A DNA stretch of 45,468 nucleotides, taken from contig JAQUNW010000008.1 of NCBI GenBank assembly GCA_028717385.1, forward strand, positions 1 through 45,468, in the 5' to 3' direction. Each line of letters opens with the position of its first letter. The stretch's first letter is position 1. Made by a program: the position numbers and the translations under genes. Positions 1,353 to 7,102 of this stretch are shown piece by piece. The notes under the pieces were generated by a model that was not told where the DNA came from, did not search any database, and worked only from the letters and a program-made list of their open reading frames with translations. The stretch is from Dehalococcoidales bacterium (lineage in GTDB: Bacteria > Chloroflexota > Dehalococcoidia > Dehalococcoidales > CSSed11-197).

Positions 1353-2081
1353 ATGTCATTTCAAGATAGCCTTGCCTGGCTCACAGAATTTAGAGAACGC
1401 TTTGATGAAGACGTGAGGCGGTTAACGGCTAAAGAACCATTATGGCAAAAATGCCGGAACTGCCCCGATGGGCATTGTTGCGGCCATGATATTTATCCGG
1501 TCACCGTGAGTCGTATCAATCCGTTTCGGCTTGAAGAATGGTGGCTGATGCTCGAATATGTAAAAAATTACTTTTCGGAAAAAGATAAAAAACAGCTGGT
1601 GCGTAATATTCTTTCGAAGCGTCCAGATTGCATTTTCCGCTTCGGTAACCGTTGCAGCGTACATCCGGCTCGTGCCTGGGCGTGCCGCGTCCATCCCTAT
1701 ACTATTTCGTTTCATGCTAATCCAGATTTTTTTCCAATTGGTCAACTTGCGCTTCCTTCATGTCCTGCGCTTGCTTCTTCTTTTGGCATAAAGAAAGAAG
1801 AAGTGGTAATTCAAACTCCCAACGTGCTGGCGAGAGAGCCAGAAAGCCGGTTGGTTCAAGTGAAGCTTAAAAAGAGAAGGCCGGTGTGGTTGCTTGATGC
1901 TACTGATTATGTGGTTGAATTTGAAAGACATGCACCCGGAGCAGAAAGACCAGGTGAATATTGGGAAGCCTTACTTGCACTTGCTGGAGAAGCCGGGAGT
2001 AAAGGCGGCGTAGCATTGCAGCTATATCTGGAGAACACTCAGGGTGTGATACGCTTGCCAAATGGCAATGTAAGATTCTGA
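1353..2081 (+). CDS. YkgJ-family cysteine-cluster protein
   Basis: A 242-residue soluble protein with the cysteine arrangement of the YkgJ/CxxCxxCC family, thought to bind a zinc or iron-sulfur centre. Cys34, Cys37, Cys42 and Cys43 occur in CRNCPDGHCC, and Cys93, Cys101 and Cys111 in PDC, RCSVHP and WACRVHPY. The C-terminal half (about 125-242) has no recognised motif. The enzymatic role of the family is unsettled, and some members are reported to act in protein modification. It is transcribed alone, converging on lipA, and seems to be translated from a leaderless message. Confidence 0.8.
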   Translation: MSFQDSLAWLTEFRERFDEDVRRLTAKEPLWQKCRNCPDGHCCGHDIYPVTVSRINPFRLEEWWLMLEYVKNYFSEKDKKQLVRNILSKRPDCIFRFGNRCSVHPARAWACRVHPYTISFHANPDFFPIGQLALPSCPALASSFGIKKEEVVIQTPNVLAREPESRLVQVKLKKRRPVWLLDATDYVVEFERHAPGAERPGEYWEALLALAGEAGSKGGVALQLYLENTQGVIRLPNGNVRF

Positions 2082-2128: not shown

Positions 2129-2995
2129 TTAATTGGAAAGAATTGTTTGGTAGTAAAGTTCTGCCGCCCTGTATGAACTCCTTACCAGTGGGGCTGAAGC
2201 AATTCCAGAAAAGCCCATTTCTAATGCAGGTTTAGTATAGCTGGAGAACTCTTCAGGCGCTATGTAGTTTATTACCGGATGGTGCTGGCTTGATGGGGAC
2301 AGGTATTGCCCGAGTGTAATTAGATTGCATTCTGATTCTCGCATTTTTTGCATTGTTGCAAGCACTTCTTCCCTTGTTTCTCCCAGCCCGAGCATTAATC
2401 CGGATTTTGTGATAATCTCAGGATTGATAGATTTAATATTGCGAAGTAGTTCAAGTGAGCGTTGGTAATTGGCAAGAGGTCTCACTGTTGAATATAACCT
2501 GGGCACTGTTTCAATATTATGATTAACCACAGCTGGTTTGGCATTTACCACTGTTTCCAGAGCGGAAGTGAGACCTTGAAAATCCGGGATGAGTACTTCA
2601 ATTTTGACATCTGGGGAAGCAAATCGTACTGCTTGGATGGTTTGCGCAAAATGAGATGCTCCGCCATCGGCAAGATCATCGCGTGTGACCGATGTAATCA
2701 CCACATATTCAAGGCCGAGCCTGTTTACCGCTGCGGCAATTCTTTCCGGCTCATCAGTAGACAATGGAGCCGGCTTTTCCTTTTTGATGGCACAAAACGT
2801 GCAGTTCCGGGTGCAAATATCCCCCATTATCATAAAAGTCGCAGTTTTTTTGGCAAAGCATTGGCACATGTTGGGGCAAAGTGCGCTCTGGCACACAGTA
2901 TTCAGCTTCAATTCTGCCAACACTGACGAAACATCAGCCATTTCATCGATTCTGGGGATTCTTTGTTTGAACCAGTCTGGGAGTCTTTTACCCAA
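2129..2995 (-). CDS. lipA: Lipoyl synthase LipA
   Basis: A 288-residue radical-SAM enzyme that inserts two sulfurs at C6 and C8 of protein-bound octanoyl groups to make lipoyl. Both cluster motifs are complete. The auxiliary cluster motif gives Cys35, Cys40 and Cys46 (VCQSALCPNMCQCF). The radical-SAM motif CTRNCTFC gives Cys61, Cys65 and Cys68. The conserved C-terminal RSSYRA, which supplies the serine ligand of the auxiliary cluster, is present. Length is normal for the family. It overlaps the end of lipB by 8 bases and is the last gene of the seven-gene minus-strand unit. Its position directly behind an exported H-domain protein suggests that this protein is a client. Confidence 0.96.
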   Translation of the reverse strand: MGKRLPDWFKQRIPRIDEMADVSSVLAELKLNTVCQSALCPNMCQCFAKKTATFMIMGDICTRNCTFCAIKKEKPAPLSTDEPERIAAAVNRLGLEYVVITSVTRDDLADGGASHFAQTIQAVRFASPDVKIEVLIPDFQGLTSALETVVNAKPAVVNHNIETVPRLYSTVRPLANYQRSLELLRNIKSINPEIITKSGLMLGLGETREEVLATMQKMRESECNLITLGQYLSPSSQHHPVINYIAPEEFSSYTKPALEMGFSGIASAPLVRSSYRAAELYYQTILSN

Positions 2996-3671
2996 GTATA
3001 CCTCCCCTGATTTGCGTGTTCGTCAACTTCTCTAGCTTAATACAAAGAATACGCGAGAGATTATCCAAAAAAAGTGGTTTAACGTCGTTCGTATCAATGT
3101 TCCTGTTAAGAAGATGGGCTATTGATGTAGCTTCTTTACCTGGTAAACCGCACAGGTTTATAACTTTAAAATCGTCCAGAGGCGGGTTGATGTTAAAAGC
3201 AATGCCATGCATGCTGATACCCCTCATGAAATGAAGGCCGATAGCTGCCAGCTGTTTTCCTCCCACCCACACACCGGGATGTTCTTTCCAGGTTTCAGCG
3301 GCGATATCAAAATAATTTGCCGTTTCAATGACTGCTTTTTCAAGATCTTGCATAAAGCGGCGAAGCTCTCCTCCTCGGACGCGCATATCCATGATTGGAT
3401 AAACGACAAGCTGCCCCGGGCAATGATAGCTTACATCACCGCCTCGGTTTGTAAGGCAGACTTCAATTCCCAACCGGGATAGCTCCTCTTCCCCCACGAG
3501 GACATTTTGTATTTTACCGAATTTCCCCAATGTTATTGTAGGCGGGTGTTCAAGAACGAGAAGCACATCTTCAATTTCTTTTTTATACCTTAAATCGGCG
3601 AGCCTTACTTGAAGATCGTAAGCTTGCTTATATTCTATCAAGCCTAGATTCCATAACCAGCATTTATTCAT
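2988..3671 (-). CDS. lipB: Octanoyl-[acyl carrier protein]:protein octanoyltransferase LipB
   Basis: A 227-residue cytoplasmic enzyme that moves octanoyl from acyl carrier protein to the target lysine of lipoyl domains. RGGDVSYHCPGQLVVYP matches the family core, with a Cys where Gly is usual in 'YHGPGQ'. The catalytic pair is present: Lys139 in GGKQLAAIG and Cys174 in INLCGLPGKEATS. It starts 23 bases after the stop of the exported H-domain gene and overlaps lipA, so the three are probably cotranscribed. No other lipoate-dependent enzyme is encoded in this window. Confidence 0.95.
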   Translation of the reverse strand: MNKCWLWNLGLIEYKQAYDLQVRLADLRYKKEIEDVLLVLEHPPTITLGKFGKIQNVLVGEEELSRLGIEVCLTNRGGDVSYHCPGQLVVYPIMDMRVRGGELRRFMQDLEKAVIETANYFDIAAETWKEHPGVWVGGKQLAAIGLHFMRGISMHGIAFNINPPLDDFKVINLCGLPGKEATSIAHLLNRNIDTNDVKPLFLDNLSRILCIKLEKLTNTQIRGGILG

Positions 3672-3694
3672 CTATTTTATAATAGCATTTCAGT

Positions 3695-4405
3695 TTAAAC
3701 GTTTGGATTCGTGTTATAAATGGCATAATCAATGCCGCTTATCAGATTATCGAGCTCTTCGGGTTTGGAGAGCTCGATTACGTATATCCAGCCTCGCAGG
3801 TAAGGTTCGACCTGCATGATAAGAGAATTAATGTATAAGTCTTCATTCACCTGTACTATAGTACCGCTTACCGGGCTATACATATCGACATTCAATTTTT
3901 GCCCTTCGAAGTTACCTAGCCAGCCGTCATAGGCCAGAACGTCCCCTTTTTTCCGAAGGGTCATTTCCCCTCTCTCAACAGCACCAAGCAGTAAGTGCAT
4001 TTTATCAGTAAGGCCTATCACAGCTAAATCATCTTGAAGTGGCTTTACCCACACATGTTCATAGGAATAGAGCCGGTCAGTAGCAACTTTACTGGTGCAG
4101 CCTACTGTATCTTCCAAAGGAGGATTTGTTGTTGGTGGTACGTATACAAATTCACCATTGTTTGTTGTAGTAGTAGGCGGCTTAGTAGTTGGTTTTGAAG
4201 TTGTGGGAGAGGTTGATGGTGGCGGAGTTGAGGTTGGTTGTTTGGTTGTTGGTTTTTCCGAATCACAGCCGGTTGAGACAACGATGGATGTCAGTGCCAG
4301 GCTGCCGGTAAGAACGCCGGTGCTTTTTAAAAAGGTTCGTCTGGAAATTGAACCAGGATTTTTCCCCCTGGCATTATTTTTTAAATCATCATTTGGGTTT
4401 TTCAT
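3695..4405 (-). CDS. Tat-exported lipoprotein with a lipoylatable glycine-cleavage-H-like domain
   Basis: A 236-residue protein. I place the start at the ATG at 4403-4405, which has GGAGGAAAGCA just upstream and lies after the stop of the preceding gene. Residues 21-27 read SRRTFLK (Tat motif). A hydrophobic stretch ends in the lipobox VSTGC (Cys47). Residues about 50-95 are a Thr/Pro/Ser-rich spacer. Residues about 110-225 are an H-protein fold: YSYEHVWV, LAVIGLTDKM, LLGAVERGEM, then EGQK and DMYSPVSGTIVQVNE. Lys170 lies six residues before the Tyr of YSPVSG, exactly where GcvH carries its lipoyl lysine. The product should be lipoylated by the adjacent lipB/lipA before folded export. A glycine-cleavage role outside the membrane makes little sense. 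I infer a redox or metal-binding dithiol carrier. Confidence 0.88.
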   Translation of the reverse strand: MKNPNDDLKNNARGKNPGSISRRTFLKSTGVLTGSLALTSIVVSTGCDSEKPTTKQPTSTPPPSTSPTTSKPTTKPPTTTTNNGEFVYVPPTTNPPLEDTVGCTSKVATDRLYSYEHVWVKPLQDDLAVIGLTDKMHLLLGAVERGEMTLRKKGDVLAYDGWLGNFEGQKLNVDMYSPVSGTIVQVNEDLYINSLIMQVEPYLRGWIYVIELSKPEELDNLISGIDYAIYNTNPNV

Positions 4406-4433: not shown

Positions 4434-5141
4434 TTATATCTGTGTAAGATAAAATATACCAACTCCAATAAATACAATAGCCATGATAATACGCATGATT
4501 TTTTCTGCTTTGCCCAGGTTGTTGATCCACCTGGAAACTGCGGTCACTCCAGCTGCGATTAGCACTCCGAAGAAGACCACCGGTAAGCCGGTTCCAATAG
4601 CAAACAGTGGCGGCAAGAAAACTCCCCCGGTTGTAGTAAGAGCGATCGGTATAAGAACAGCGAAAAAAAGCAGGGCGCTGTAAGGGCAAAAAGCGAGCGC
4701 AAATATAATACCCATTAGCAGTGCGCCAAGCAGTCCCCAGTTGGAGACCTTGTTGCCCAGCGTTGCAATTCTACCGCTCCCTCCGAACGAGAAACGATCA
4801 ATGACCAACATCAGGATTCCTGCCAGAATAAGCAAAGGACCGAGTACATATGTTCCCACATCCTCCAAGAAGTTGCGTATAGCTGGCGTTTCCAGGCCAA
4901 TGGTAATTATTAACAAGCCGATAAGAGTGTAGCCGATCATGCGGCCTAAAGAGTATAAAAGGCTGGCCATTATAGCGAATTTGCGATCGGTGATGCGGCG
5001 GCTAATATAGGCAACAGATGCTATGTTGGTTGCCATGGTGCAGGGGCCGACAGAAGCCATCAGCCCGAGAAGTATAGCTGCCAGGAAGGTCACTTCTGTA
5101 TTGAGGAAAAGAGTATGAAAAAAATCAGATAGCCACGCCAT
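4434..5141 (-). CDS. arsG: CcdA/DsbD-like membrane protein, ArsG-type
   Basis: A 235-residue polytopic membrane protein with about six membrane segments. It has the two membrane cysteines of the CcdA/DsbD transmembrane family: Cys34 in VGPCTMATNI and Cys152 in LAFCPYSALL. Such proteins pass electrons from cytoplasmic thioredoxin to extracytoplasmic thiols. The subgroup found with ArsF-like lipoproteins is annotated as ArsG, an aromatic arsenical permease. Both readings are possible. The ATG at 5139-5141 overlaps the TGA of the preceding gene by one base (a TTG three bases earlier is less likely), so the two are translationally coupled. The neighbours are consistent with an arsEFG-like cassette. 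Confidence 0.8.
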   Translation of the reverse strand: MAWLSDFFHTLFLNTEVTFLAAILLGLMASVGPCTMATNIASVAYISRRITDRKFAIMASLLYSLGRMIGYTLIGLLIITIGLETPAIRNFLEDVGTYVLGPLLILAGILMLVIDRFSFGGSGRIATLGNKVSNWGLLGALLMGIIFALAFCPYSALLFFAVLIPIALTTTGGVFLPPLFAIGTGLPVVFFGVLIAAGVTAVSRWINNLGKAEKIMRIIMAIVFIGVGIFYLTQI

Positions 5142-5620
5142 CAACTTTCTCCACTGAGAGCTTTATCGATATTTTTCTTTAGCTCGCCAATGAATTTATT
5201 CTTGAGCTCCTGGTTGGTTCCGGTTGTATCGGTGTACAGCCATATTTTACCTACTTGCCAGGTAGTACTTTCACCATCTTTAATTGTGGTTATAAAAAAG
5301 GCGAACTTGGAAGCGTTAAACTCTTCCATGAGTGGACTGGTGGCAGGATCTCTCGTATCATAACTTTTGTAGGTAATTAATCCGCTTTCTATTTCTTCAC
5401 CGTAATCTTCATGCATAACCGTATTTACCCATTCCACCGCCAGGTTCAGGCAAAAACAGTTGTCTGATTCGTAGAAAAAGTTTACTTCCACCCCGTCTGT
5501 CTCTTCGGTCGTCAGCGGTGGAGTTGTTGTTTGTTCTGAGGGGTTATTGCACCCCGTGAGGCTGAAAACGGTAAGTAAAAAAGCTACGGCCAGCGCCGAT
5601 ACAATTTTGTTTTTGCCCAT
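5141..5620 (-). CDS. arsF: ArsF-like CxC lipoprotein (thioredoxin-like)
   Basis: A 159-residue lipoprotein started at the ATG at 5618-5620, which has AAAGGAGGC close upstream. The signal sequence ends in LTGC (Cys24). A Thr/Glu-rich linker is followed by VEVNFFYESDNCFCLNLAVEWVN. This is a thioredoxin-type first strand with a CxC pair (Cys55, Cys57) where thioredoxins have CxxC. The family is annotated as subunit ArsF of a nitroaromatic-arsenical reducing pair, known from an arsEFG operon in Shewanella; this is from memory. It is probably anchored outside the membrane and fed by the CcdA/ArsG-like protein encoded immediately downstream. Confidence 0.78.
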   Translation of the reverse strand: MGKNKIVSALAVAFLLTVFSLTGCNNPSEQTTTPPLTTEETDGVEVNFFYESDNCFCLNLAVEWVNTVMHEDYGEEIESGLITYKSYDTRDPATSPLMEEFNASKFAFFITTIKDGESTTWQVGKIWLYTDTTGTNQELKNKFIGELKKNIDKALSGES

Positions 5621-5658
5621 AATACGCCTCCTTTCAGGCACAAAATTTACGAAGACTT

Positions 5659-5904
5659 TTATCCAGCTTGTGCTTTAGTTATCATAGCCGCGATTTCTTG
5701 TTTGGAGGGTACCTTACCGGCACAAACTACCTCTTCGTTTATTACCAGTCCGGGAGTAGTGAGTATGGGATATTCCAGTATTTTACCCATGTCTTTGACG
5801 TACTCTACACTAGCTGGTATACCCATCTCGCTAATCACTTCTTTTACCAACTTCTCTAACTTATGGCACTTGGCGCAGCCAGGTCCTAAAACCTTAATAA
5901 CCAT
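5659..5904 (-). CDS. arsE: Small redox-active disulfide (thioredoxin-like) protein, ArsE-like
   Basis: An 81-residue single-domain thioredoxin-fold protein without a signal peptide. The active site GPGCAKC has Cys10 and Cys13. The cis-proline loop TTPGLVINEE (Pro51) and an extra Cys61 in VVCAGKVP are present. This is the 'redox-active disulfide protein 2' type. The start chosen is the ATG at 5902-5904 behind TTAGGAGAG; a longer reading would run into the permease gene and has no better site. It is cytoplasmic and fits a donor to the CcdA-like membrane protein or to metalloid reduction. The gene symbol is by analogy with arsEFG and is tentative. Confidence 0.8.
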   Translation of the reverse strand: MVIKVLGPGCAKCHKLEKLVKEVISEMGIPASVEYVKDMGKILEYPILTTPGLVINEEVVCAGKVPSKQEIAAMITKAQAG

Positions 5905-5938
5905 AGTTTTCTCTCCTAATATTTTTTGCACTTGTTTG

Positions 5939-6976
5939 TTAAGTAATTGCCCCAAAAATCAATCCCGAAATGGTTGCAAAACCTATCACTAGCCCAACAT
6001 AGGCCATGGTCTTTTTAGTGCCCATAATAGATCTCAGGGCCAACATGCTTGGCAGAGACAGAGCTGGGCCGGCAAGTAACAGCGCAAGCGATGGACCTTT
6101 ACCCATGCCGAGATCCATCAGGGATTTGATAATAGGTACCTCTGTCAGTGTGGAAAAATACATGAATGCTCCAAATAAAGAAGCAAAGAAATTGGCGCCC
6201 AGACTGTTTCCACCAACAAAACGACCGACTAAAGATTCCGGAAGAATTACAGTTAAAATACCAGCTATAAAAATCCCCGCCAGTAACCAGGGTGTTATCA
6301 ACCGCACAAAGCGCCAGGTTTCTTTCATCCATACACCAAATTCTTCCCGGGTAAACCATTTCCAGATTATTATCGCCAGGATTGCCAGGCTGATCCCCAA
6401 CATTATCCAATTGGAGGAAGCGGCAAATAGAAGAACCCCTACCAGTACCAGGAATAGAATTACCTGCTGCCACCATTTTTTTTCGTTCGGATCATCACAG
6501 AGACTGGCAAATGCCCCGTCATTTATTTTGTGTTTTCCTTCATCGCGGAACAAAAATGCCATTACAAGGCCAATTACCACTGAAAAGAGTATTGCGCCGA
6601 TTGCTCTGCCCAACCCCAGATCGAAACCCAGGAGCCTTGCTGAATAGGTAATCGCCAGTACGTTAATAGCGGGGCCGGAGTAAAGGAAGGCAATAGCGGG
6701 TCCAATTCCAGCGCCTCTCTTGTATATTCCGCCAAACAGGGGAAGAACCGTACAGGAACATACTGCCAGAATTGTTCCAGAAACAGATGCGACGCCATAT
6801 GAAAGAAAGCGATTGGCGCCAGGGCCGAAATATTTGAGTACCGATTTCTGGGAAACAAAAACCGATATCGCGCCAGCTATAAAAAAGGCGGGAACAAGGC
6901 AGGTTATTACATGAGCTGAGAGATATTCCAGCAGTGCATTCCATCCCCCTGCAACCAAATCGGTAATCAGTTCCAT
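5939..6976 (-). CDS. Permease of the ArsP / UPF0718 family
   Basis: A 345-residue membrane protein with about eight to ten hydrophobic segments in two halves. The first half holds AVCSCTVLPLFGGIYKRG (Cys73, Cys75) and FLYSGPAIN. The second holds STLTEVPIIKSLMDLGMG and LLLAGPALSLPSML, a repeated 'GPA' signature of this family. ArsP members export trivalent organoarsenicals, but many family members are of unknown substrate. It is the first gene of the minus-strand unit and starts behind AAAGGAGCATTAGGTAA. The CSC pair could bind a soft metalloid. With the thioredoxin, ArsF and ArsG-like genes downstream, a role in metalloid or thiol-conjugate export is likely but not shown. Confidence 0.85.
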   Translation of the reverse strand: MELITDLVAGGWNALLEYLSAHVITCLVPAFFIAGAISVFVSQKSVLKYFGPGANRFLSYGVASVSGTILAVCSCTVLPLFGGIYKRGAGIGPAIAFLYSGPAINVLAITYSARLLGFDLGLGRAIGAILFSVVIGLVMAFLFRDEGKHKINDGAFASLCDDPNEKKWWQQVILFLVLVGVLLFAASSNWIMLGISLAILAIIIWKWFTREEFGVWMKETWRFVRLITPWLLAGIFIAGILTVILPESLVGRFVGGNSLGANFFASLFGAFMYFSTLTEVPIIKSLMDLGMGKGPSLALLLAGPALSLPSMLALRSIMGTKKTMAYVGLVIGFATISGLIFGAIT

Positions 6977-7076: not shown

Positions 7077-7102
7077 ATATAAATGCGTATATGCGCTTAT
7101 AT
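7077..7102. promoter_or_regulatory. ArsR/SmtB-like palindromic operator
   Basis: A 26-base AT-rich inverted repeat. The arms ATATAA and TTATAT are at its ends, with a GC..GC core around a TATA centre, and 20 of 26 positions are self-complementary. It lies immediately downstream of the -10 element of the permease-lipA operon, so a bound repressor would block initiation. Spacing and composition resemble ArsR/SmtB-family sites. No regulator gene is in the window. Confidence 0.55.

Follow-up and report, generated by a model that had tools for sequence, protein, structure and literature searches.

Lipoate biosynthesis genes behind a predicted Tat-exported H-domain lipoprotein in an arsenic-type operon of Dehalococcoidales

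Which proteins does the lipoate pathway serve in a Dehalococcoidales bacterium whose lipB and lipA genes stand directly behind the gene for an H-domain protein? Lipoate is described as a cofactor of the cytoplasmic 2-oxoacid dehydrogenases, of glycine cleavage and of the sHdr system. The stretch of DNA analysed here (45,468 nucleotides, referred to as the window) forms contig C8 of a draft genome (G000) that comprises 1.37 Mb in 71 contigs and is 96% complete. The three genes lie on the minus strand (Table 1), and the gap of 23 bases between the H-domain gene and lipB (3694-3672), as well as the overlap of lipA with lipB (8 bases), agree with the arrangement given in an earlier note on this DNA. 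The start codon of lipA is TTG, preceded by AGGGGAGG. LipB and LipA both scored above the NCBIfam cut-offs; LipA contains the two Fe-S cysteine motifs of lipoyl synthases, CxxxxCxxxxxC and CxxxCxxC, as well as RSSY, and could be aligned with the solved lipoyl synthases 4u0o, 5exi and 8tsk. The catalytic Cys174 of LipB (codon 3152-3150) is present, and this cysteine was invariant in the 37 LipBs compared. The position of the canonical catalytic lysine (Mtb K142) is occupied by Gln in the window LipB and in its clan (see below), by Glu in the E2-linked LipBs of the same order (families f4, f84 and f101), and by Lys in the remaining LipBs compared. Since operons joining H, LipB and LipA recur in three Dehalococcoidales families, the three-gene arrangement is not attributed to chance. 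On the 3' side of lipA (window 1353-2081 and the region of 665-1177), a CxxCxxCC-type protein on the plus strand, with a weak match to PF03692 below the cut-off, and a small lipoprotein on the minus strand were observed, neither of them clearly part of the operon.

Table 1. Features of the operon and of its H-domain protein (positions in the window).
Feature	Position	Strand	Support
lipA, lipoyl synthase, 288 aa	2129..2995	-	TIGR00510 370 bits (cut-off 310.25)
lipB, octanoyl transferase, 227 aa	2988..3671	-	TIGR00214 155 bits (cut-off 83.55)
Predicted exported H protein, 236 aa: Tat signal, lipobox, Thr/Pro-rich linker, C-terminal GcvH-fold domain	3695..4405	-	PF01597 71 bits (cut-off 22.2)
Predicted lipoyl-lysine K170 (FEGQKLNVDMYSPVSG)	3896..3898	-	Falls in the lipoyl-lysine region in an alignment to E. 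coli GcvH
Lipobox Cys47 (SIVVSTGC)	4265..4267	-	Cys kept in all aligned members reaching that position
Twin-arginine motif SRRTFL, residues 21-26	4328..4345	-	RR in 20/20 exported H proteins with complete N-terminus
ArsG/CcdA-type membrane protein, DsbD transmembrane family	4434..5144	-	PF13386, PF02683; NF040495 (ArsG) 239 bits, above cut-off
ArsF-like lipoprotein, CxC motif, thioredoxin-like fold	5141..5641	-	NF040494 below cut-off; conserved DxCFCL
ArsE/MTH895-type thioredoxin (CAKC)	5659..5955	-	TIGR00412 98.9 bits, PF13192
ArsP_1-family permease, first operon gene	5939..6976	-	PF03773 261 bits
Candidate ArsR-type operator TATAAATGCGTATATGCGCTTATA, 5' of the operon (ArsP)	7078..7101	.	20/24 identical to the site before arsR in sister genome G215

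By its twin-arginine motif and lipobox cysteine, both present, the H-domain protein is predicted to be a Tat-exported lipoprotein, and a weak match to the Tat-signal model was also obtained. The AlphaFold model of its H domain had pLDDT values mostly above 90, and Foldseek returned target-normalised TM values of 0.87-0.92 to most of the GcvH structures in the top 22 matches. A set of 22 exported H proteins was assembled from 14 genomes belonging to three families of Dehalococcoidales; the lysine K170 was invariant in all of them, at identities to the window protein as low as 32%. Glu at -3 and Gly at +11 around the lysine matter for H-protein lipoylation, and both are kept in the window protein. 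A search for relatives with the domain alignment recovered one near relative (86% identity, Dehalococcoidales bacterium STD1_49), a distant one (42%, Dehalococcoidia KR_bin-3015), and elsewhere canonical GcvHs. Across the class, no Tat signals were found in long open frames with GCV_H matches in the 30 loci checked. The long frame of G251 encodes a different protein with an H domain, in whose translation no Tat signal was seen, and G113 (L043, 1498-2259) encodes an H-domain lipoprotein paralogue that lacks both the lipoyl-lysine and the Tat motif.

The clients and enzymes of the pathway were sought in the whole genome. GCV_H domains above the cut-off were detected in the window H protein, in a second exported H protein (contig C9), in a cytosolic GcvH-like protein (C4) and in a carboxylase-type protein (C2). 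The PF00364 protein on C2 was considered as a lipoyl E2 and rejected, being of the carboxylase type with the biotin motif EAMKM at its site. Neither the catalytic domain of a 2-oxoacid dehydrogenase E2 nor GDC-P (GcvP) was found in the whole-genome search, which extends to the 96% complete genome the earlier observation that the window encodes no GcvP or 2-oxoacid dehydrogenase. A check for other lipoate enzymes, which the same note had proposed, returned the window LipB as the only protein with the LplA/LipB fold (PF21948 search). LipA occurs as the window copy and as one copy directly behind the exported H gene of C9; a single Lpd-like protein (459 aa) fell below the curated Lpd cut-offs shown.

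Judged from these sequences, the pathway has at most three likely clients, of which two are exported, and none among the classical complexes searched for. The description of the window H protein as a single dedicated client was thus too narrow, as the second exported H-lipoprotein, with its own lipA, and the cytosolic GcvH-like protein are further probable clients. The suggestion that the whole lipoate pathway may serve an envelope protein holds for the most part: because E2 and GcvP are absent and the only LipB sits behind an exported protein with a lipoyl site, the pathway appears mostly to serve the envelope, though not as a whole, since the cytosolic GcvH-like protein is also present. Among the findings named at the outset as speaking against that suggestion, no E2 and no second lipBA pair were encountered, but an additional lipA and an H protein that is not exported were. 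In two relatives (G113, L048 6934-8702; G241, L106 3966-5783), the cytosolic GcvH-like gene adjoins a dihydrolipoyl dehydrogenase gene, and its neighbourhood in G113 includes likely sulfur-transfer genes (TusA/DsrE-like, judged from the translations).

For the order as a whole, 156 Dehalococcoidales genomes were searched for exported H, LipB, E2 and GDC-P. A clear LipB was found in 44 of the 156 genomes. In the 13 genomes with both LipB and exported H, E2 or GDC-P over the cut-off was never detected (0/13), whereas the LipB genomes of other families had E2 or GDC-P in 27/28 cases and exported H in 0/28; the E2 matches of G224 and G228 were weak fragments. GDC-P over the cut-off was absent from every exported-H genome. 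Fisher's test of the association gave p ~5e-8 without correction for phylogeny, although genomes within a family are not independent and the effective contrast is one of three families versus about ten. LipB genomes with neither exported H nor E2/GDC-P were G302 and G303, where the contig with LipB is short or cut, G243, in which only an H fragment lies beside LipB, and G317, which is 61% complete. The LipBs of the three exported-H families formed one clan with 100/100 support, apart from the LipBs of the E2/GcvP families, and 16/18 of them have LCG instead of PCG at the catalytic cysteine. The exported-H genomes appear to have lost the usual uses of lipoate and to have retained the pathway for the exported protein; as the usual lipoate complexes are missing and the biosynthesis genes are kept beside exported H, lipoic acid probably works outside the cytoplasm in these bacteria.

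The genes 5' of the H gene, in the same direction and with short gaps or overlaps as in one operon, encode an ArsP_1 permease, an ArsE-type thioredoxin, an ArsF-like lipoprotein and CcdA/ArsG (ArsP, ArsE, ArsF and ArsG being family names). The arsenic type of the operon goes unmentioned in the earlier note. The best Foldseek matches of the ArsF-like protein were thioredoxin/PDI folds, all weak (E about 0.003-0.05). The window holds ArsE/F/G/P-type genes and a candidate operator, with no adjacent arsR, arsA or acr3; ArsR, arsenic genes and a candidate operator were found together in relatives. The order ArsR-ArsP-ArsE-ArsF-CcdA-H-LipB-LipA (type A) was found whole or almost whole in G215, G211, G241 and, arsR excepted, the window, and in part in G242, G297, G298 and G214; the GPCT and FCPY cysteines of CcdA were kept in 8/8 type-A copies. 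A second order (type B), detected in G113 (with Acr3 alongside), G213, G241, G304, G301, G300 and G302, comprises ArsR, ArsD, ArsA, a membrane-anchored protein X, CcdA and H, followed in several genomes by LipB-LipA; homology of protein X to ArsF was looked for and could not be shown. In the ArsR regulators, the motifs ECCVCE or ICECVG were found, which belong to the metalloid-sensing type. Within 2.5 kb and on the same strand, the 22 exported H genes were accompanied by CcdA in 15 cases, by LipB or LipA in 14, and by arsenic-type genes in 15.

The C9 locus of the same genome represents a further order (type C: activase, double-cubane reductase pair, NapH-like, CcdA, H, LipA), with parts in G213, G296, G241 and G243, and includes no named ars genes. 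There (L041, 6150-14001), the second exported H gene and its own lipA were observed with genes for an aldehyde ferredoxin oxidoreductase, an acyl-CoA dehydratase-type activase, two double-cubane reductase-like proteins, NapH-like and CcdA-like proteins, a radical SAM protein and a 425-aa protein. Three H paralogues of G113 are near neither ars nor lip genes. In this genome, exported H genes were observed directly after a protein with two CxxCxG motifs (L045 7886-8485 and L046 7475-8083) and after a cupredoxin-like lipoprotein (L047).

The 20-base core of TATAAATGCGTATATGCGCTTATA occurs once in the window, versus 0.01 expected. A related palindrome, wATGCGCATAT, was present at 10 sites in the 282 kb that cover exported-H loci and related ones (0.3 expected) and at none in 319 kb of control loci, an excess that is descriptive rather than a blind test because the pattern was written after the loci had been inspected. 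These sites precede arsR-arsP operons, the SDR-LipB genes and ArsD of G113, the Acr3/ArsA pair and LipB of G296, the orphan H of L047, the H gene of G214, and the start of the C9 exported H in the window's own genome.

The reading that we favour, with moderate confidence, is that the operon, of the arsenic type, serves redox reactions in the envelope, with a lipoylated, Tat-exported lipoprotein that acts on arsenicals as its central soluble component. The features on which it builds, as read from the sequence, are the gene order, the predicted Tat signal and lipobox, the invariant lysine, the GcvH fold, the missing E2/GcvP, the co-occurrence in three families, the linkage to arsR, arsD, arsA and arsP, and the common palindrome. 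In the cytoplasm, LipB would transfer octanoate to Lys170 of the H domain, already folded, and the sulfurs would then be inserted by LipA; the Tat system would carry the folded, modified protein across the membrane, on whose outer face it would be anchored by the lipobox cysteine. ArsE, as a cytosolic thioredoxin, and CcdA/ArsG would relay electrons across the membrane and keep the lipoyl group as a dithiol, either directly or via ArsF; the cysteines that CcdA would need for this relay are those kept in type A. Dihydrolipoyl groups are classic ligands of arsenicals, which they bind with high affinity and also reduce. At the cell surface the dihydrolipoyl arm would bind or reduce arsenic compounds together with the efflux parts ArsP or ArsA/Acr3. 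The steps that we infer are the lipoylation, the route of the electrons and the identity of the substrate as arsenic; the arm may bind arsenite, reduce a pentavalent or organic arsenical, or reduce something else. The wider claim, namely that lipoic acid is an extracytoplasmic cofactor, that the exported lipoyl protein binds or reduces arsenicals outside, and that the whole pathway is kept in three families only for an arsenic-regulated system, seems to us evenly balanced. Several observations count against the proposal: the Gln at the canonical LipB lysine position in the exported-H clan, though that position is Glu in the E2-linked LipBs of the order; the C9 locus, the three G113 paralogues and the window itself, for want of named ars genes, of ars/lip neighbours and of an adjacent arsR, respectively; the ArsF match below the cut-off; and the H paralogue without lysine and Tat motif.

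In a different reading, the exported lipoyl protein serves as a dithiol carrier of general use outside the cytoplasm, as a client of DsbD/CcdA that reduces disulfides, sulfur compounds or envelope enzymes, and the arsenic-type genes are incidental or only co-regulated by thiol stress. CcdA is indeed the most constant partner in types A, B and C, the C9 locus joins the second H and LipA with CcdA, NapH-like, activase and double-cubane reductase genes, and some H genes of G113 lie beside a cupredoxin-like lipoprotein or a cysteine-rich protein. However, 15/22 exported H genes are near ArsA, ArsD, ArsP or ArsF, As(III)-type ArsR motifs occur beside several operons, and the common palindrome also precedes the C9 H gene and the orphan H of L047, so that we consider a general carrier possible, if rather unlikely.

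It is improbable that LipB and LipA mainly serve the cytosolic GcvH-like protein, working with Lpd and an AhpD-like or sulfur-transfer partner as LbpA does, with the exported H proteins as unmodified scaffolds and the adjacency as operon history. The cytosolic protein occurs in this genome and in most relatives, adjoining Lpd in G113 and G241, and an Lpd-like protein is encoded here; against this, 22 diverged exported proteins all keep the lysine, lipB and lipA lie beside exported rather than cytosolic H, the second lipA follows the second exported H, and Tat export fits a protein modified before export. Ordinary lipoate metabolism, with E2 or glycine cleavage genes in the 4% missing from this 71-contig draft (96% complete), is very improbable, given that neither E2 nor GDC-P turned up in any sister genome or in any exported-H genome of the three families, several of which are 91-97% complete.

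The preferred reading, of an exported lipoyl protein in an arsenic-type operon, was compared with known systems. The window H protein shares with GcvH (PF01597) the fold, the lysine position and the E(-3)/G(+11) residues, and probably the same LipB/LipA chemistry; it differs by its Tat signal, lipobox and linker and by the absence of GcvP from the genome, and scores below the gcvH equivalog cut-off (59.2 vs 115.85 bits). LbpA of the sHdr sulfur-oxidation system is likewise homologous to GcvH, with a lipoylation set of its own and a function other than glycine cleavage (PMC6067878, PMC10332631), and is lipoylated via sLpl(AB) with LipS1/S2 (PMC10332631). The window system instead combines LipB and LipA with Tat export and ars-type genes; no sLpl(AB) was found, LipB being the sole LplA/LipB-fold match, and no mention of a signal peptide or Tat was found in the eLife paper on the LbpA system. 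CcdA, a thioredoxin and redox-active disulfide protein 2 had already been noted in ars operons (PMC2963123); these operons resemble the present ones in CcdA/ArsG, the ArsE-type thioredoxin and the ArsF-like protein, and in ArsA/ArsD of type B, and differ in that the H protein and lipBA are added in the window system. No mention of glycine cleavage was found in PMC2963123, and its sole 'lipo' match is a species name.

The window system is assembled from known families. In the open-access literature, we found no description of exported lipoyl proteins, of ars operons containing lipBA, or of lipoyl H proteins with Tat, CcdA or arsenic. If the protein proves to be modified and exported, lipoate would be put to a new use here. 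We know of no earlier case of a lipoyl group used outside the cytoplasm, and the window H protein would be the first if its lysine is modified. Lipoate is a cofactor classically poisoned by arsenic, and would here be tied to a bacterial arsenic-response regulon. In the lipoyl-dependent peroxidase systems, such as AhpD with a lipoyl E2 in mycobacteria, lipoyl is likewise a thiol reductant rather than an acyl carrier, but these are cytosolic and use E2 proteins. In the genome analysed here, the cytosolic GcvH-like gene of C4 adjoins an AhpD-family gene (L040, 6164-6945; also L109), a pair kept in the sister genome G214, and the nearest NCBIfam relatives of this AhpD-family protein include the arsenosugar-associated and ArsM-AhpD families.
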